From Vagococcus fluvialis bH819 (GTDB lineage Bacteria; Bacillota; Bacilli; Lactobacillales; Vagococcaceae), in assembly GCF_900163795.1 (NCBI RefSeq), contig NZ_FWFD01000003.1:1-64000 (forward strand): a DNA stretch of 64,000 nucleotides, in the 5' to 3' direction. The notes beneath the pieces are model-generated. The model was given only the letters and a program-made list of their open reading frames with translations, was not told where the DNA came from and made no database searches. Positions 12,720-21,343 of the stretch are shown in pieces; the stretch's first letter is position 1, and each line of letters begins with the position of its first letter. Made by a program: the position numbers and the translations under genes.

Positions 12720-15707
12720 CTACATTCCTTCAAAAAAGTTCATGAGTGAATCTTCAAACTCAGAAGCACCAAAGAATCCAATATTTTCTTCGTCTTCAAT
12801 TTTATGAACCACATCTGCAAGGTTAGGATTATCTATCAGAGAATGTCCTGGTAAATAAACGGCGTAAGCTTCCATGATTCGATTACTGTTAACATCTTGG
12901 TCTGCCGCCCAACGTCGAATTTTTAATTCTTGTTGCTCTGTTCGATATTTTTTTCTAGTCGTTACAAGTGACTCTGTTGTAAAGTGTTGCGTGATTCGAC
13001 CTTCTTCAATATCAGTTACAATCGCATTTATCTCTTGACGACTGTCTTCATCCATCGGAATAATATGCTCTTCGATGGCTACTTTATTCACCTCTGTCGT
13101 CTCATCAATAAAGTTATTCATCAATTCAACTAATTTATCGTAGTCGATAATCTCTTCTGAATACTTCTCTAAAGCCACTCGTATTTCTGTAATATCGGGT
13201 CTTTTTTCAGGTGGTAGTAATTCCACAACATCATTCATTCTCGCTTGTAGTGCGCCTAATGTTTCAGAATCTTTAATATCCAAAGTAATCTTATGACCAG
13301 TTTCTTGACCTAAAACATCTAATTCATTGATTTCTGAACCTAATTCGTATCCTTGTCTAAGTAAGCGTTGAATCTTATCTTGGGTTCTAGCCGCAAGTTT
13401 AGCAAATTCTTCTTGTTCGGTTTCTGAACGTGGGATTTGACTAAAAATATCTCCAGAAAGTTCTTTTAGTCGTTCAATCGCTGGTTCTAATTCTTTAATC
13501 TGATCACTTTGAGGTGCTGCAAAAATCCCATCATCTTCTAAGTCTTTTTCTTTCAGTTGCTTACTTTCCTTTTCAGCTTCAGTTAACGTATCATTGCCAC
13601 CTTTTGTATAAATACGTAAGGCATTTTCAACGTATTCTTGCATATCATCACCCTTGCGATAAAAACGAACCTTTCCGTAAGGCTTACTATTTCGATCAAG
13701 GGTTCGATTAGTACGAGACATTGCTTGAATTAACATACCTTCTTTTAGCATCTTATCCATGTAAATCATATTAATATACTTAGAATCAAAACCTGTTAGA
13801 AGTTGATCTGAGACAATCACTAAATCTAATCGGTCTTCTTCCTTGCCTTGATTATAAGGTTTCTTTCGTGCTAATCGTTTCGTTATATCTGTAATAAAAG
13901 CACGTTCAGGTTCTTTAGCATTCAAGATACTTGGTGTTTGATACATCTCAGTATATGTCAATATTGCCTTTTTTAAGCTTTCATTTTGCTCTTTAGTTCC
14001 TCGGTCATTGGTTTCATCTCGAGAAAATGTCATGGTAACTTTTAAATCTGGCGCCATTTCTTTGAAAAGATTATAGTACGCCACCACCGCTTGTTTTCCA
14101 GACACAGCTAACATGGCTTGAAAAACATTTTTCTCACGAATACCACCAATCACTTCTCCACCAGAATTCTTTTCCCAATTCTCTATAATATCCTCTACTA
14201 CTTGGGTTCTATAAAGCATACTACCATAAACTTCTTTTTCATAATCTTTATCTGAAAATTCTTCTACTTTATTTGTTACTGTGTAGCTTGGACGGTAATA
14301 TGTCACATCAAAACCAAGAACATTCCCGTCTCCAATCGCGTCTTTGATGGTATAACTGTGTAGACGTTTACCAAAAATATCATGAGTTGAAATATCACGA
14401 GTTGTTGTTACTTCGTTTAAAGTGTCACTATAAAAATTAGGTGTTCCAGTGAAACCAAACCACGTTGTTTTACTAAATGCTTCTTTAATTAGTTCGACAG
14501 ACTCACCACTTGCTGAACGATGAGCCTCATCCATAATAATGACGTTCCACTCATCATTTTTCAAACCATTTTTAACAGCTTTAGTTAACCCCTGAACTGA
14601 AATCAATAGGATTTGTGACGCACCCTTATGTTTTAGTTCTTTTTTAAGCTCTCTACCATTCACTTTTTTGATACGATTTTTAAAATGAGTATAGGCAAAA
14701 TCTTTAAAATTTTCCATGGTCTGATCGATTAAATCAACCCGGTCGACAATGAATAAAACATTCTTTATTCTTGGGGCAGCCGCTAAAAGTTGTGCAACTT
14801 TAAAAGAAGTTACCGTCTTACCTGACCCTGTTGTATGCCAGATATAACCTCCCTCTTTTTGAATCATACCACTTTGTTCCATATCTTTCATGCGTTGTAA
14901 GATTGCCCGTGTTGCCTGTATTTGATAACTGCGCATCACCATCAAATTATCATTAGAAGCATCAGGAATCATATTAACGGTCACTAAACGATGAAGAGCA
15001 GGGATTCCCATTACTTGATGAGAAAATTCAAAAGCATCTGTCACATCTTGTCCACGATCATCACGCCAACCAAAGACAAAAGTTTTATTGTAGTGTTCAA
15101 AAGCATTAGGTCTCGCTAAATAATAAGCCGAATGTTGGCTTAGAATAAATTGAACCTGAACAAAAGAGAATAACCCTGTATACATCCCATCACCATGATA
15201 GCCTTTTAATTGCTCAAACGCCGTCCACTGATTTTGCAAGTGTTCATCTTTTAATTCAATGTGAGCAACTGGCAAACCGTTTATTAGTAACATCACATCA
15301 ATAATCCGCTTAGTTGTTAGTGCTTTAGGTAATTCCGTAAAATTAATTTGATTCACTATCTCATACCTAGAACGACCGCCAGCCACGTCATCTTCATAGA
15401 AAATTTCAACTTCTAAGTTCGAACCATCATCACGAGTAATTGGAATCGAGCCAACTCCTCCAGCACCCACTAATAATAATTGGGCATCATAAGGGGTACG
15501 GATTCTTTGTAATTCTTGCATAATTAAGCCAAATTCAATATCTGATAATTTATCGCCATTTAATTTATGAGCATTCGTTTGATTTAAAACATCTCTCCAA
15601 TGTTCCTCTAAAACCTTTGTACTAACACCAGACAAATCCTTTCGATATGTCCAACCTTCACTTTCAAGCTTTTTTATTAACGCTTGTTCGAACTTTGCTT
15701 CTGCCAC
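12720..15707 (-). CDS. hsdR: Type I restriction endonuclease subunit R
   Basis: This 995-aa motor and nuclease subunit cleaves DNA far from unmodified sites. The N-terminal RecB-like nuclease has Asp in RIIDVMLL and the ELK signature in VAHIELKDE near residue 150. The helicase has Walker A WHTTGSGKT at about 290 and the DEAH box in IIMDEAHRS at about 385, followed by a second RecA-like domain (DQLLTGFDSKYIN, then QAMSRTNRT). A helical C-terminus would bind the methylase. The GTG start at 15707 has AGAGGAG 9 bases upstream. It is separated from hsdMS by the recombinase and silent hsdS, so it is transcribed from its own upstream region. Confidence 0.95.
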   Translation of the reverse strand: MAEAKFEQALIKKLESEGWTYRKDLSGVSTKVLEEHWRDVLNQTNAHKLNGDKLSDIEFGLIMQELQRIRTPYDAQLLLVGAGGVGSIPITRDDGSNLEVEIFYEDDVAGGRSRYEIVNQINFTELPKALTTKRIIDVMLLINGLPVAHIELKDEHLQNQWTAFEQLKGYHGDGMYTGLFSFVQVQFILSQHSAYYLARPNAFEHYNKTFVFGWRDDRGQDVTDAFEFSHQVMGIPALHRLVTVNMIPDASNDNLMVMRSYQIQATRAILQRMKDMEQSGMIQKEGGYIWHTTGSGKTVTSFKVAQLLAAAPRIKNVLFIVDRVDLIDQTMENFKDFAYTHFKNRIKKVNGRELKKELKHKGASQILLISVQGLTKAVKNGLKNDEWNVIIMDEAHRSASGESVELIKEAFSKTTWFGFTGTPNFYSDTLNEVTTTRDISTHDIFGKRLHSYTIKDAIGDGNVLGFDVTYYRPSYTVTNKVEEFSDKDYEKEVYGSMLYRTQVVEDIIENWEKNSGGEVIGGIREKNVFQAMLAVSGKQAVVAYYNLFKEMAPDLKVTMTFSRDETNDRGTKEQNESLKKAILTYTEMYQTPSILNAKEPERAFITDITKRLARKKPYNQGKEEDRLDLVIVSDQLLTGFDSKYINMIYMDKMLKEGMLIQAMSRTNRTLDRNSKPYGKVRFYRKGDDMQEYVENALRIYTKGGNDTLTEAEKESKQLKEKDLEDDGIFAAPQSDQIKELEPAIERLKELSGDIFSQIPRSETEQEEFAKLAARTQDKIQRLLRQGYELGSEINELDVLGQETGHKITLDIKDSETLGALQARMNDVVELLPPEKRPDITEIRVALEKYSEEIIDYDKLVELMNNFIDETTEVNKVAIEEHIIPMDEDSRQEINAIVTDIEEGRITQHFTTESLVTTRKKYRTEQQELKIRRWAADQDVNSNRIMEAYAVYLPGHSLIDNPNLADVVHKIEDEENIGFFGASEFEDSLMNFFEGM

Positions 15708-15936
15708 TCCCCTACACTCCTCTTGACCTTTTCTTTTTCATTATCTGTTATCTATTTTCAAAGTTTATTAATATTCTGTTTTCATTATACGATAAATTTA
15801 AAAATTTATGCTACCTTTGTCATGAAATATGAAAATTTGTCGTATATTATTTTTGCTAGTTTAATAATTTTGATAAAAATAGGCTAGTTTTTAGATGAAT
15901 TAGGTTATAAAAAACTGTTTTGATAGAATATTACGC

Positions 15937-15954
15937 TTGGGAACAGCGTAAGTT
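15937..15954 (+). repeat. Inverted repeat A (silent cassette start)
   Basis: TTGGGAACAGCGTAAGTT here is identical, in inverted orientation, to segments in repeats B and C of hsdS. The cassette copy also shows a dyad, TTACGCT and AGCGTAA around TGGGAAC (15931-15951), a layout typical of tyrosine-recombinase core sites. The other copies keep only the right arm and spacer. Confidence 0.8.
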
Positions 15955-16387
15955 AGGGGAAGTTGCGGATGTAATTGGTGGTGGAACTCCTAGTACTAGC
16001 GTTAGCGAGTATTGGGATGGAGAAATAGATTGGTATGCGCCTGCTGAAATAGGTAACGATATTTTTGTTAACAGCAGTAAAAGAAAAATAACTAAATTAG
16101 GTCTTGGAAAAAGTTCTGCAAAAGTTTTGCCAATCGGAACTGTTCTTTTTACTTCTCGCGCAGGTATTGGAAACACTGCTATACTCTCTAAAGACGGTGC
16201 AACAAACCAAGGATTTCAATCAATTATTCCAAAAGTAAATCAACTTGAATCGTATTTTATTTATTCAAGAACAAGCGAATTGAAAAAATATGGTGAAATA
16301 ACAGGTGCAGGCTCAACTTTTGTCGAGGTATCAGGTAAACAGATGGCAAAAATGCCAATTGTTATTCCTAAAATCAATGAACAAACT

Positions 16388-16441
16388 AAAATCGGTAACT
16401 TCTTCAAACGACTCGACGAAACTATTACTCTTCAAGAGCGT
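16388..16441 (+). repeat. Inverted repeat D (silent cassette end)
   Basis: The segment encodes the conserved spacer helix (IGNFFKRLDETITLQER). It matches hsdS in inverted orientation: the last 27 bases (16415-16441) match repeat E exactly, and two 22-base blocks match repeat F. It is an alternative crossover region. Confidence 0.75.
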
Positions 16442-16445
16442 TTGC

Positions 16446-17363
16446 TTAAATGCTTGATAAATACCTCATTATTTTGTCATTATCTTGGTTTTCCAACTCT
16501 TGAATAATGTGTAAATAAATTTGCTGAGTGGTACTCATATTGGCATGACCTAATCTTCTGGCAACACTTGCGATTGATACACCAGCAAATAACAACAAAG
16601 ACGCATGAGTATGTCTTAACCCATGGATTGAAATCACTGGTATATCAACTTTTTGACAGTGTCTTTTCAAGCGATTGTTGACTGTTGAATTAAAAATACG
16701 TCCTTTGACAAAGATTAGTTGGTCTTCTGGAAAATTCTCTAACAATTGAGCAAACTGCATGTTCGTTTTCCAATCAAGTTGAACCACCCTTTTCGAAGAA
16801 AAATTTTTAGTCTCTTGGAAGCCACCGCTGTGATTTTTGTAATTCCATGTTTTTGTGACTGATATAGTCTGGTACGCAAAGTTAAAATCTTCTTTTGTTA
16901 GGGCTAAAGCTTCTGAAAAACGTAAGCCAGTTTTTGCAATTAGCAAGATTAACCAGTCAAAATTTATTTCATCCTCTAATTTCAAACCATTCAACAACTT
17001 TTGTAAATCGAACTGACTAATAAATTTGGTTTTCTTTCTAGTTGGTGGTCGCCCTTTTATTACAACCTTCCTTGTTGGATCAACTAAAATTAACCTTTCA
17101 TCTACAGCATCAATGATTGCTCCTTTTAATTGATGGTGGAAATCCGTTGTCGTTTGTTTTTCATGTGTCAACGCATAGGTATTTAAAATTTGTTGGTACT
17201 TCCTTCTGTCAATTTCAGAGACTTTAATATCTGGAGCAATTTTTTTCAAATGATTAAGTGACATTTTATATTTGGCAAGAGTAACATCACGAACTGCACC
17301 AACCTTATACAATTGAATCCACTCACTAAAGTATTCATGAAACAAAATATCTTTATTTTTCAT
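16446..17363 (-). CDS. Tyrosine recombinase, probable HsdS invertase
   Basis: This 305-aa site-specific recombinase has an N-terminal SAM-like core-binding domain (about residues 5-95) and a C-terminal catalytic domain. The active-site set is complete: Arg in AKTGLRFSEAL, HGLRHTHAS, and ARRLGHANMSTTQQIY with the nucleophilic Tyr. Recombinases of this type next to hsdS arrays (PsrA/CreX in streptococci) invert hsdS segments. The gene lies inside the predicted invertible segment and its 3' end overlaps the silent hsdS cassette. Its GGAGG is buried in a hairpin, which suggests tight translational control. A role as a remnant integrase of a mobile element is possible but less likely given the inverted repeats. 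Confidence 0.9.
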   Translation of the reverse strand: MKNKDILFHEYFSEWIQLYKVGAVRDVTLAKYKMSLNHLKKIAPDIKVSEIDRRKYQQILNTYALTHEKQTTTDFHHQLKGAIIDAVDERLILVDPTRKVVIKGRPPTRKKTKFISQFDLQKLLNGLKLEDEINFDWLILLIAKTGLRFSEALALTKEDFNFAYQTISVTKTWNYKNHSGGFQETKNFSSKRVVQLDWKTNMQFAQLLENFPEDQLIFVKGRIFNSTVNNRLKRHCQKVDIPVISIHGLRHTHASLLLFAGVSIASVARRLGHANMSTTQQIYLHIIQELENQDNDKIMRYLSSI

Positions 17364-17366
17364 GAT

Positions 17367-17418
17367 AAAAGCACCTCCGTTACATTCATTTTACGTGAAT
17401 TCAACGAGAAGTGCTTTT
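17367..17418 (-). promoter_or_regulatory. Hairpin sequestering the recombinase ribosome site
   Basis: AAAAGCAC pairs with GTGCTTTT, extended by a CTCGTT/AACGGAG segment and an apical ATTCA/TGAAT stem. The 3' arm contains the GGAGG that precedes the recombinase ATG. It lies 4 bases after the stop of the macro-domain gene. It could also act as a weak terminator. Confidence 0.65.
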
Positions 17419-17422
17419 AGTA

Positions 17423-18451
17423 CTACCCTTTACTTTTATATTTTCTATTCATGTTCTTTCTGTCAGCTTTAAAACATTCTGAATCTATAACCTTCTCATA
17501 TTTTCCTTTATTAACATATAAAATATCTAAAAGATTATTTTTTAAACTAATGTAATCATGTAAATCACTTAAAATTATTTTTTCCTCAGCAACAAAAGAA
17601 CTTGGAACAGATAAAACTAACGACTTAACCAAAGTTTTATTATTTTTTTTGCCTTTAGGATTAATATAGCAAAGTTCAAAATAACTCTCTACAATCCCAA
17701 TTGCTGCACTCATTTCAGAGTTATCACCTGAATGACCGGTACCTAACATAGGCATCACTATAGGATCAGGAAACACGTCTCCTTCATAAATTTTATTCCA
17801 TAGTTTACATAAGTGACTTAATGTTTCACTATTTCCATGAAATTCATGTCGTCCAATTTCTTTAGTTGAATTAGCAATTAAAAATGCTGTCTTCTTTGAA
17901 TTACTATATTCTGGATAAACAATTTGAGAGATTTCTCCATAATCACACTTATGATTGTTAACTCTCCTTTTTAAACCAATTTCCACAATCTCATCAAATC
18001 GATCTGCCATCTCATCAGTTAAATTTTCTTTCTTTGTTTGAAAGAACTTTTCATATATTCCATAATAAACTGAATCTATTTTAGCATGTTTAGTTTTTAT
18101 TGTTGTACTCATTCCACTAACAGCGGTACCTTCTGGAAATTTATCTAAAACATCAAAATAATCTCCTACAACAACGGTAACTTCATAGCCATGTTTCCAT
18201 TCAAATGTTTTATTTAATAGATTAATATTTTTTAGGATTACTATAATTAATCCAATAAATATAGAAATTACGACTAACCAAACACTATCTTTTCGTACAA
18301 AAGGGGACTTACCACCACCAAAATCGATAATTTCTTTTATTGTTAAACCAATACCAATCAAACTCATTGTTACCCCAAACCAATTAATTAAGTTCTTTTT
18401 AAGAGGAGTTTGTCTAAACAACCTCCAAGATAATTTTATTTTACTTCCCAT
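17423..18451 (-). CDS. Membrane protein with macro domain, ThsA-like (type II Thoeris effector family)
   Basis: The 342-aa product has two N-terminal membrane helices (about residues 22-42 and 58-78) followed by a macro-type domain. Visible macro features are VTVVVGDYFDVL at about residue 90 and the glycine loop MPMLGTGHSGDNSE at about 230. This arrangement matches the family annotated as ThsA_Macro/DUF6430: in type II Thoeris it senses a TIR-made ADP-ribose-type signal and damages the membrane. That assignment rests on recognition by eye. The gene lies 38 bases after hsdS on the same strand, inside the predicted invertible segment. No TIR (ThsB) gene is in the window. It may be an orphan effector or may be served by ThsB elsewhere. 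Confidence 0.75.
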   Translation of the reverse strand: MGSKIKLSWRLFRQTPLKKNLINWFGVTMSLIGIGLTIKEIIDFGGGKSPFVRKDSVWLVVISIFIGLIIVILKNINLLNKTFEWKHGYEVTVVVGDYFDVLDKFPEGTAVSGMSTTIKTKHAKIDSVYYGIYEKFFQTKKENLTDEMADRFDEIVEIGLKRRVNNHKCDYGEISQIVYPEYSNSKKTAFLIANSTKEIGRHEFHGNSETLSHLCKLWNKIYEGDVFPDPIVMPMLGTGHSGDNSEMSAAIGIVESYFELCYINPKGKKNNKTLVKSLVLSVPSSFVAEEKIILSDLHDYISLKNNLLDILYVNKGKYEKVIDSECFKADRKNMNRKYKSKG

Positions 18452-18489
18452 TTTTTTACCCCTATATTTTCATTTTGACACAAAAAAAT

Positions 18490-19719
18490 CTAAATAAATA
18501 ATTTTTGCAGAAAACCTTTTTTCATTTCTTTCATTTTTTCTAACTGTTGCTCTTGAAGAGTAATAGTTTCATCGAGTTGTTTGAAGAAGTTACCGATTTT
18601 GGTTTGTTCTTCAGTCTTAGGAAATATTAAGTTAACTGATTTTAAATCAGAATTATTTAAATGAACTACAGATTTTCCTTGAGCTCTTTTACTCAATTCT
18701 TTTTGTTGGGTACCATTAGAGATTGTTAATGCTAAAAATAATGGATTAATTAAATCAGTAACTTTGATAATATTTAAATCTCCACCAAGTATAATTCCCG
18801 CAGTATCAACTACCGATGCTCTTGAAATATCTTCTGAACTTTCTCCAGAAGAAGGGACAATAACCTCATTCCCCTTACTAATAACCGATTTTTCTTTCAA
18901 TTCTACATAGGTTTTCACTTTGGATATACTTGATTGATAATTAGTGTATAAACTTCCATATAAAATTATAGGTGTACCAGAATCAATTAAGTCGCTTTTG
19001 GTATAACCATTTCCTTTAGAGAATCTAGCTAACTCCCCCAACTTACGCTGTTCCCAATCGCCAGTAAATCCTTCAAATCTAAGCTCTGGAAATTTTTCAT
19101 TTTTTTTCGGAAACATTTTCTGTAAATAACCTTTTTTCTGTTCTTTTAACAAATTTAACTTACGCTCTTGAAGAGTAATAGTTTCGTCTAGTTGTTTGAA
19201 AAAGTTACCGATTTTGATTTGTTCTTCATCTGTTTTAGGAACCATAGCTGAATAATTAGAAATTTGACTCAATGAAATATGTTTAATTGCATTTCCAACT
19301 GACAGTGTTTGCATTTTTATTAGGAATGTTCTATTTATCGTCAATTGAAATATAAAGTCTAAACATGATGATTGTATTCGCCCAACTCGTTGTGCAAGTA
19401 AAGCATCTTCATTACTATATAAAGCCGTTTTTCCTAAATTAACACCATCCATAGTTACTAAAATATTTTTTCCACTTAAATTAAATTTTTCAATAATATT
19501 TTTGTCTCTAGGAGTAATTTTGTCAGTTTCAGTATTTTTAGATCTTGAACTATCTGAAATATCTTTGTTAGTAATAACCAGATACTTTCCATTTTTATCA
19601 AATTCTGTACTACTAAATGCCTTTCCAGTAGTTACTATTCCTAACTCCCCCAACTTACGCTGTTCCCAATCTTCCGTATACCCTTCAAACCGTATATCAG
19701 GGATTAATTGATCTTTCAT
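18490..19719 (-). CDS. hsdS: Type I restriction-modification specificity subunit
   Basis: This 409-aa two-domain HsdS has its first recognition domain at about residues 18-155, the central conserved helix IGNFFKQLDETITLQE at about 165-185, the second recognition domain at about 222-360 and the distal helix at about 370-409. Each recognition domain is preceded by DWEQRKLGEL, encoded by identical DNA (repeats B and C). The ATG at 19719 lies just after the hsdM stop, with AAAGGG upstream; a TTG at 19728 is a less likely start. The gene directs where HsdM methylates and HsdR cuts. The second recognition domain is predicted to be exchangeable with the silent cassette at 15.9 kb. Confidence 0.93.
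   Translation of the reverse strand: MKDQLIPDIRFEGYTEDWEQRKLGELGIVTTGKAFSSTEFDKNGKYLVITNKDISDSSRSKNTETDKITPRDKNIIEKFNLSGKNILVTMDGVNLGKTALYSNEDALLAQRVGRIQSSCLDFIFQLTINRTFLIKMQTLSVGNAIKHISLSQISNYSAMVPKTDEEQIKIGNFFKQLDETITLQERKLNLLKEQKKGYLQKMFPKKNEKFPELRFEGFTGDWEQRKLGELARFSKGNGYTKSDLIDSGTPIILYGSLYTNYQSSISKVKTYVELKEKSVISKGNEVIVPSSGESSEDISRASVVDTAGIILGGDLNIIKVTDLINPLFLALTISNGTQQKELSKRAQGKSVVHLNNSDLKSVNLIFPKTEEQTKIGNFFKQLDETITLQEQQLEKMKEMKKGFLQKLFI
18549..18600 (-). repeat. Repeat F (distal spacer helix of hsdS)
   Basis: Two 22-base blocks (18549-18570 and 18579-18600) are identical to repeat D in the inverted orientation, separated by an 8-base stretch with two differences. Confidence 0.7.
19029..19059 (-). 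repeat. Repeat B (start of second recognition domain)
   Basis: These 31 bases are identical to repeat C in direct orientation and share 18 bases with repeat A in inverted orientation. A crossover between A and B inverts about 3.1 kb and exchanges the second recognition domain in frame. Confidence 0.8.
19162..19188 (-). repeat. Repeat E (central spacer helix of hsdS)
   Basis: These 27 bases are identical to the end of repeat D in inverted orientation, with further matching bases beyond. A crossover between D and E would invert about 2.8 kb. Confidence 0.75.
19641..19671 (-). repeat. Repeat C (start of first recognition domain)
   Basis: These 31 bases are identical to repeat B. A crossover with repeat A would give an in-frame, half-length HsdS of about 206 aa. 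Homologous exchange between B and C would delete the first recognition domain. Confidence 0.75.
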
Positions 19720-19720
19720 T

Positions 19721-21343
19721 TTATTCAATCCCTTTCTCGTTTTGCCAGATTTTAGTCATTTTCTCTCTTGTTATTTCTAATTCTGTTTGGGATTCTGGGG
19801 TTGTTCCGACTAATTCTTGGAACATCGTCATTAGTTTTTGCGTACTATTATTTAACTGTTCTTCCACTTCGATTAACTGATCTGCTACGGATTCCATATC
19901 GACTGGTTCTTCTTCTTCAAACGTATCCACATAACGTGGAATATTCAAATTATAGTCATTTTCTTTAATTTCATCCAAACTTGCCACATAAGAATATTTT
20001 TCTATTGTTTCTCTATTAATGACTGTCTCAACAATTTTATCCACATCTTCTGGTCTTAAATGATTTTGACTTTTTTGCTTGCCAAATTCTTTACTAGCAT
20101 CAATGAATAAAATATCTGAGTCCATACGATTTTTTTGAAGAATCAATACACAGACAGGAATTCCTGTGTTTAAGAATAATTTATCTGGAAAGCCAATCAC
20201 CGCTTCAATCTGGTGTTTATCAATCAATGCTTTACGAATTCTACCTTCTGCCGCTCCTCTAAATAAAACGCCGTGAGGTAATACAATCGCCATACGTCCA
20301 CTATCTTCTAAGTGATACAAGCAATGTAAAAGGAAGGCATAATCACCTTTTGTTTTTGGTGCCACACCATATTCTCGCCAACGAGGATCATCTTCTCGGT
20401 CCTTATTGTTCCAATCAGCAGAGTATGGTGGATTTGCCATAACAGCATCAAACATCCTAGGGTTGTCTTTTCCATCTACTACTCCATCTGGCCAATCACT
20501 CTCTAGGGTATCAGCGTGATTAATATTAATATCGTTGTACTCCACACCGTGCATCATTAAGTTCATACGTGCTAATCGGTAAGGCGTTGCATCACTTTCT
20601 TGTCCGAAATATTTGATCATCCCACGTTTATGAGAATTTTTCATGTAACTCGCTGTTGTTAATAATAACGAACCCGAACCAACTGTTGGATCATAAATTG
20701 AGAAGCTTTCTTTTTCTTCATGTCCATGAGTTAAAATTCTTGCCATGACATTTGAGATTTCTTTTGGCGTATAGTATTGCCCCATATCAGAAGCTAAAAC
20801 TGTCGCAAATTGAGCCACTAAATATTCATAAATATCTGAAACTGTATCACCATCTCCAGATAAATCAAATTCAGGGGTTGATAATAATTCAATCATTGAA
20901 ATCATCACTCCTGAACGAGATTGAGCATTAGAGCCTAAATCAGCACTATCAAAACGCATCCCGTCAAAAATACCTTCAAAATCAGCTTTTGCCTCAAAGG
21001 CTACTTGTTGATTAAATCGACCAAATGTATCACTCATTAAACCAATATTAAAACGATCACTATTAATTGCTGCTTGCCAATCACTAAAAAAGTCTCCCGG
21101 TTGAATGGCATAACCAAGATTTTGTTTCATATAATCCATGGCTTTTTTATTGTCTTGATTGTAAACATTCTCCCATGTTTCTCCACGCAAAACTTTATCT
21201 AACCATGTTGTTGCTTTTTCTGATAAGTATTTATAAAATAAAATTCCGAAAATATAATCTTTATAAGCTGTTAACCCAATCTTTCCACGAGTTTTATTCA
21301 GCATGTTCCACATTTTTGTTTGTTGCTCACTTGATAGTGCCAT
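19721..21343 (-). CDS. hsdM: Type I restriction-modification methyltransferase subunit
   Basis: This 540-aa N6-adenine methyltransferase subunit has an N-terminal helical domain (about 1-150). The AdoMet site is YDPTVGSGSLLL at about 215-226. The catalytic motif is VMANPPYSADW near 305, the NPPY form of adenine-N6 methylases. The C-terminal helices would contact HsdS and HsdR. AAGGA precedes the ATG. Its stop is followed by the hsdS ATG within 2 bases, so both are produced together. With two HsdM per HsdS it forms the methylase core; HsdR is added for restriction. Confidence 0.96.
   Translation of the reverse strand: MALSSEQQTKMWNMLNKTRGKIGLTAYKDYIFGILFYKYLSEKATTWLDKVLRGETWENVYNQDNKKAMDYMKQNLGYAIQPGDFFSDWQAAINSDRFNIGLMSDTFGRFNQQVAFEAKADFEGIFDGMRFDSADLGSNAQSRSGVMISMIELLSTPEFDLSGDGDTVSDIYEYLVAQFATVLASDMGQYYTPKEISNVMARILTHGHEEKESFSIYDPTVGSGSLLLTTASYMKNSHKRGMIKYFGQESDATPYRLARMNLMMHGVEYNDININHADTLESDWPDGVVDGKDNPRMFDAVMANPPYSADWNNKDREDDPRWREYGVAPKTKGDYAFLLHCLYHLEDSGRMAIVLPHGVLFRGAAEGRIRKALIDKHQIEAVIGFPDKLFLNTGIPVCVLILQKNRMDSDILFIDASKEFGKQKSQNHLRPEDVDKIVETVINRETIEKYSYVASLDEIKENDYNLNIPRYVDTFEEEEPVDMESVADQLIEVEEQLNNSTQKLMTMFQELVGTTPESQTELEITREKMTKIWQNEKGIE

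Follow-up and report, generated by a model that had tools for sequence, protein, structure and literature searches.

A distant ThsA relative encoded within the predicted invertible hsdS segment of a type I restriction-modification locus of Vagococcus fluvialis

Phase-variable type I restriction-modification (RM) systems with an hsdS invertase, of the pneumococcal SpnIII/PsrA kind, combine hsdRMS with a partial second hsdS, a tyrosine recombinase and identical inverted sites, and all of these recur in the Vagococcus fluvialis bH819 locus described below. The locus also shares with EcoprrI/PrrC (excerpt of PMC3874165) a gene for a suspected cell-killing effector among its type I RM genes. The product of this gene resembles ThsA of type II Thoeris (PF20016, EcThsA; PDB 8v6q, 8v6s, 8r66, 9uuz) in having N-terminal helices followed by a macro-like domain. 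Precedents exist both for an effector gene in a type I RM operon (prrC) and for an invertible hsdS. Their combination did not appear in the titles and opening lines of abstracts of the open-licence papers screened for a Thoeris or abortive-infection gene that lies in an hsd locus or an invertible segment. The excerpt of PMC12324116, on pneumococcal inversions, concerns the control of inversion and names no effector gene in the segment.

The window, i.e. the whole stretch of 64,000 nucleotides analysed, carries hsdR, hsdM, hsdS, a second partial hsdS, a site-specific recombinase and identical inverted repeats, the features of a phase-variable type I RM system (Table 1). Between hsdS and the recombinase, and on the same strand as both, lies an intact open reading frame of 342 codons with an ATG start (342 aa), which starts 38 bp past the end of hsdS and stops 59 bp before the recombinase. 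The sequence TTGGGAACAGCGTAAGTT is found at A (+), B (-) and C (-) with 18/18 identical bases, each copy near the start of a recognition domain as judged from the reading frame, and longer inverted repeats (89-92%) lie near the recognition-domain ends. Given the positions of the three sites, any inversion between A and either B or C would carry the effector gene and the recombinase along. Both this placement and the 38-base spacing had been proposed in a preliminary description of the locus, and the coordinates bear them out.

Table 1. Features of the locus, with positions in the window
Feature	Position	Strand	Evidence
hsdR	12720..15707	-	PADLOC REase_I PDLC03045, E 0
Half hsdS, one recognition domain, presumed silent cassette	15920..16507	+	PF01420 8.2e-31, 1 stretch
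Inversion site A, 18 bp	15937..15954	+	Exact match to B and C on the opposite strand
Tyrosine recombinase, presumed hsdS invertase	16446..17363	-	PF00589 6.7e-22; related loci beside hsdS
Hairpin pairing the recombinase Shine-Dalgarno, between effector and recombinase	17364..17422	-	-23.9 kcal/mol, z -5.5
TM-macro, ThsA-like effector gene	17423..18451	-	Reading frame, PADLOC ThsA models, own HMM, hhalign
hsdS-effector gap, 38 bp, with AGGGG ribosome-binding-like site and no terminator-like site among those listed	18452..18489	-	Sequence and site scan
hsdS, expressed specificity gene, two target recognition domains	18490..19728	-	PF01420 2.5e-37, 2 stretches
Inversion site B, 18 bp	19040..19057	-	Identical to A and C
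Inversion site C, 18 bp	19652..19669	-	Identical to A and B
hsdM	19721..21343	-	TIGR00497 over cut-off; PF02384 1.2e-120

The explanation that we favour, with a probability of about 45%, is that a transmembrane (TM)-macro effector gene was captured by this locus, that in the present orientation it probably lies on read-through RNA from hsdMS, and that it would be left behind a silent hsdS cassette when the segment is flipped. It starts from what was observed directly: the gene and its architecture, homology at the superfamily level, the identical inverted sites, and related loci with no gene in the slot.

The preliminary description had given the protein two N-terminal membrane helices, a GTGHSG loop and the layout of ThsA. 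The loop is present at residues 237-242. One strong TM segment is clear by hydropathy at residues ~51-82 (19-residue windows starting at 51-64); the other proposed helix, at residues 15-44 in a low-confidence AF2 model, has a hydropathy below 1.5 and is hence weaker or amphipathic. One hydrophilic face is likewise predicted for TM helix 1 of ThsA (excerpt of PMC11204291).

PADLOC ThsA models matched the protein (ThsA2, E 2.2e-7; another ThsA model, E 1.5e-6), PDLC00439 scoring 28.5 bits in hmmscan. An HMM of our own, built without the effector on 13 TM-macro proteins encoded in other genomes, in plasmids and in viral contigs, scored 25.7 bits (E 9.4e-7), compared to at most 8.9 bits for 2000 shuffles and at most 6.2 bits for 678 other open reading frames; with residues 80-342 alone the score went down to 15.0 bits (E 0.0017). 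Comparison by hhalign of the single effector sequence with the 13 proteins gave 93.4% over residues 87-245. A profile from alignment A1 also retrieves ThsA macro structures in PDB, although A1 includes ThsA relatives and this is hence not independent evidence. The effector and the ThsA macro domain both carry a GD near the domain start and a GxG loop and can be aligned over most of the domain, at 14-23% identity in alignments A1, A3 and A5; the stretch after GTG or the C-terminal part is poorly placed in alignments A3, A4 and A8-A10. The effector differs from ThsA by inserted residues at about 262-272 and by a tail of about 35 residues.

Two checks suggested in the preliminary description gave nothing of the kind. 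No Pfam model matched at E<=0.001, and up to E<=10 only unrelated sub-threshold models appeared, PF20016 not among them; five other TM-macro proteins run through Pfam matched PF20016 at 9e-27 or better (two of the five look identical). Structure prediction gave no confident fold, with best mean pLDDT of 44.6 and 47.5 in two AF2 runs (the other four models of the second run at or below 35.5), and these models were used for helix positions only. NCBIfam had no match to the protein, and phmmer against PDB found nothing. Judged by the profile comparisons, the effector belongs to the ThsA TM-macro superfamily as a remote member, so that a ThsA-like ancestry is supported, and the closer identity suggested at the outset is weakened by the missing PF20016 match and by the replacement of two mutation-tested residues.

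To place the pocket residues, EcThsA numbers were taken from section 7 of PMC11204291, located by counting along PDB chain 8v6q (taken as EcThsA from its numbering) and transferred to the effector via its relative L075 in alignment A5. Three positions are kept (D83 as D97, S175 as S195, G218 as G239) and two are conservatively changed (S217 to T238, T220 to S241). N96, F99, D100 and N114 are replaced by S115, I118, K119 and Y129, and H259 and K262 correspond to V282 and S285, the K262 region being poorly aligned. According to the same section, the ADP-ribose (ADPR) pocket consists of D83, S217, T220 and K262, and double mutation of D100 and N114 inactivates BaThs, a type II Thoeris system. Of the ADPR pocket, the effector thus has D97 kept, T238 and S241 as conservative changes, and S285 not conserved in the poorly aligned last region. 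Strict type II Thoeris membership fails on three features (the PF20016 match, equivalents of D100 and N114, and an adjacent ThsB), while N-terminal helices with a ThsA-related macro domain are supported at the sequence level by PADLOC, HMM and hhalign.

Across the 13 TM-macro relatives, N96 and F99 are invariant (13/13) and D100 is present in 10, being absent from L052, L064 and L069. N114 is found in eight; it is missing from the same three and from L051, which lies beside a DUF4062 gene, and L055, which lies beside annotated TIR genes. No TIR gene was noticed beside the TM-macro gene in L052, L064 and L069, where the profile searches covered two neighbours in L052, two in L069 and none in L064. 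Broadly, then, among the relatives with surroundings examined (all but L072, L075 and L080), loss of both D100 and N114 appears to go with absence of a ThsB neighbour. We read the diverged pocket positions as pointing to altered ligand use, which is not proof of it. Loss of the otherwise invariant N96 and F99 would fit a gene that is inactive or drifting cargo with no present function, and the searches found no homologue close enough for selection to be measured. We consider such decay improbable, since the frame has stayed open over 342 codons at a local GC content of 28.5% and has kept a ribosome-binding-like site, the conserved GxG loop and the TM segment.

The preliminary description had noted the lack of a TIR partner, and it proposed a search of the genome for TIR proteins. 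No TIR match was found in the window, and its contig, C14, had no match to PF08937 or PF13676 at E<=0.1. With the same models and threshold the genome as a whole gave matches on contig C21 only, so that TIR genes do exist in this strain, beside a ThsA of their own. They belong to a type I Thoeris locus (L007, 7846-13061) with a SIR2-STALD ThsA (PDLC00407, 1.1e-164), two ThsB-type TIR proteins, a bSEFIR protein and a fourth, weak TIR-like gene. By eye, an integrase-like open reading frame lies near this locus.

The effector could in principle serve as effector or amplifier of the C21 system, activated in trans by ADP-ribose from its TIR, SEFIR or SIR2 NADases, all of which are encoded there. 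ADPR is a normal metabolite, a point against such signalling, and the ligand residues differ in the effector. In the excerpt of PMC11204291, TM-macro ThsA binds ADPR and IAD, as this possibility would need, but does not bind 2'cADPR or 3'cADPR. Because the C21 locus owns an effector already and TM-macro ThsA does not bind the cyclic ADPR isomers, we rank cross-talk only as a rival, and a very improbable one.

The recombinase, for its part, is common. Related recombinases were found in 33 loci from GTDB contigs and as 27 matches in 25 of 118 relatives' genomes (own genome included), leaving 53 other unique loci after removal of duplicates. An hsdS lies upstream on the same strand in 42 of the 53; no such hsdS was matched in the other 11, which are uninformative on the slot. 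The gap between hsdS and recombinase is 150 bp or less in 41 of these 42, the exception being L044 with 335 bp before a shortened recombinase frame, and the window locus differs from the other invertase loci as the sole one of 43 with a gene between the two. Four congeners (L108, L109, L110, L120) have the layout of the window and three core sites, with a gap of 80-89 bp and no gene in it. Since related loci have the slot without a gene, the effector is most simply explained as an acquisition in this lineage.

The recombinase runs in the same direction as hsdM in 24 of the 53 loci and in the opposite direction in 15 (14 unknown), both orientations being consistent with flipping during evolution. 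As a separate observation, the HsdM of the window shares 76-80% identity with its counterparts in Listeria grayi and in two Enterococcus loci, as does HsdR in those that have it (among L030, L032, L033, L108-L110 and L120); HsdM of the four congeners with related recombinases is just 41-43% identical. These identities suggest an exchange of the recombinase module and hsdRM. Other recombinase loci hold an AAA_14/DUF4143 gene between two hsdS genes (L037, L041, L045) or a Fic gene between an hsdS and hsdR (L022, L024, L049). Given these extra genes at other positions, the window is not alone in having cargo near hsdS.

Outside its own genome, no close relative of the effector was found in 60 relatives (E<=1e-5) or 395 genomes of the order (E<=1e-3), nor in GTDB contigs, plasmids, phages and IMG/VR. 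A profile including ThsA relatives matched 4 of the 395 genomes of the order, own genome among them. A survey with a ThsA profile gave 10 of 398 genomes, which is a lower bound because the PDLC00439 search missed the effector in its own genome, losing it at the first stage.

The genomic surroundings of other TM-macro genes were opened for 12 genome loci (L051, L052, L062-L071) and 4 of 11 plasmid hits (H1, H3, H4, H8). Genes of the hsd type, looked for in the annotation or with the subunits of the window as blastp queries, a procedure that can miss distant types, lie close to the TM-macro gene in 2 of the 12 genome loci and 1 of the 4 plasmid hits; the plasmid operon and one of the two genomic ones are probably the same. 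A TM-macro gene accompanies ThsB in L056, L057, L062 and L063, and in L012-L014 by reading of the frames only. In L062 (2464-10544) and in L054 (8099-13109), which is a conjugative Carnobacterium viridans plasmid, ThsA and two ThsB genes are co-directional with hsdM-hsdS, the TM-macro gene being directly before hsdM, and L062 has hsdR too. These two are probably one operon (identical Pfam scores) and were counted once; their gene content makes this a composite Thoeris and type I RM operon. It resembles the window in having a TM-macro gene co-directional with and adjoining hsd genes, and differs from it in its ThsB genes and full PF20016 domain; within L062 there was no match to a recombinase like that of the window.

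In L051 (7627-18755), hsdR and hsdS of a type I RM operon are separated by a TM-macro gene and a gene for a DUF4062 protein of 896 aa, a pair which is possibly Thoeris-like with a different sensor. Three loci, from three genomes of one genus (L052, 2273-8309; L064, 4023-10006; L065, 9263-15291) have a gene for 583-596 aa and one for 1119 aa, then the TM-macro gene. The 1119-aa protein of L052 shows SMC/SbcC-like ATPase matches and a weak, below-cut-off match to ABC-3C MComp1, and L064 and L065 have a neighbour of the same length. Near the TM-macro gene of the plasmid hit L055, a protein with a TaqI-like specificity domain is encoded.

These contexts bear on another possibility, that the effector acts as a PrrC-like guard: it would be held inactive by the type I enzyme, or would sense it, and be released when a phage blocks restriction, inversion mattering only insofar as the gene travels with the hsd module. 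Like prrC in the EcoprrI operon, which offers a precedent (excerpts of PMC3874165 and PMC2610378), the effector gene is inside an hsd locus, and TM-macro genes occur in or beside type I RM operons elsewhere (L051; L062/L054). The DUF4062 gene of L051 and the ThsB genes of L062/L054 are, however, candidate sensors in their own right, so that the RM enzyme need not be the trigger. PrrC is moreover an anticodon nuclease, and no PrrC model was found among the Pfam, NCBIfam and PADLOC matches of the effector. We regard a guard of this sort as unlikely.

The recombinase leaders were compared in a set of 45, the window plus 44 of the 53 other loci (seven skipped for short or distant recombinases, two without GGAGG). 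Forty of the 45, window included, fold within the top 1% of their own shuffles, which kept base composition only and had the last 12 bases fixed; the remaining five are L018, L019, L121, L123 and L126. At least four of the five Shine-Dalgarno bases are paired upstream in 41 of the 45, and shuffles do so 60% of the time. Leader stability is thus the stronger signal, and Shine-Dalgarno pairing alone is weak evidence. When 35 of the 45 leaders were aligned, the hairpin arms were seen by eye to change together between loci and to have in common an ATAATA core, a possible -10 element.

In transposase leaders, an analogous fold silences translation of the enzyme from read-through RNA. By analogy, the recombinase leader hairpin looks like such a fold-back silencing device. 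A stable hairpin over the recombinase ribosome-binding site suggests that hsdS RNA commonly reaches the recombinase, and the effector is upstream of the hairpin; by the same analogy, the hairpin supports hsdS-effector co-transcription without proving it.

Alternatively, the gene could be expressed from a promoter of its own or constitutively at a low level, its place in the invertible segment being incidental; it was, after all, found in one genome only. Promoter-like sites are plentiful in this AT-rich stretch, with 39 in the region against 28.9 +/- 5.1 expected by chance, a modest excess, and three of them, each matching 9/12, lie on the minus strand inside hsdS (19526, 19493, 19126). The consensus scan nevertheless listed no promoter-like site on the minus strand between 18452 and 19098, and the gene, which has its own ribosome-binding-like site, abuts hsdS at 38 bp. 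Independent expression seems to us doubtful. Of the promoter-like sites in the region, the one with the best match (11/12, TTGACA-16-AATAAT) lies on the plus strand at 18475-18502; it covers the hsdS-effector gap together with the end of hsdS and is directed antisense into that gene.

Under the favoured explanation of a captured gene read through from hsdMS, the effector would at present be translated from hsdM-hsdS read-through RNA. Going by the geometry of the sites, an A x B inversion would leave it still following recognition domain 2, with the segment now at the place of the half hsdS, on the plus strand. The recognition-domain segment would there replace the silent cassette, and effector expression should fall. 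Homologous proteins suggest that a nucleotide ligand may cluster the macro domains and that the TM helices would then damage the membrane, so that the infected cell is killed or arrested. The trigger would be something other than a neighbouring ThsB, perhaps the state of the RM enzyme, perhaps a product of the ADP-ribose type from elsewhere.

A coupling of specificity and effector is a geometrically sound hypothesis with indirect support. In its full form, one inversion would both change restriction specificity and arm or disarm a membrane suicide effector tied to one recognition domain, giving a population always mixed in specificity and in willingness to die. Recognition domain 2 being immediately upstream of the effector and flipping together with it, the effector would be armed only while this domain belongs to the expressed gene. 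This full form we hold to be unlikely. Coupled or not, TM-macro genes adjoin several front ends: ThsB/TIR, DUF4062 in a type I RM operon, an SMC-like ATPase, and, in the window, type I RM alone. The divergence of D100 and N114 in several cases without a ThsB neighbour suggests that the macro module may answer signals beyond those known from Thoeris. If the coupling were true, it would provide a genetic bet-hedge in which restriction specificity and abortive infection are set by one switch.
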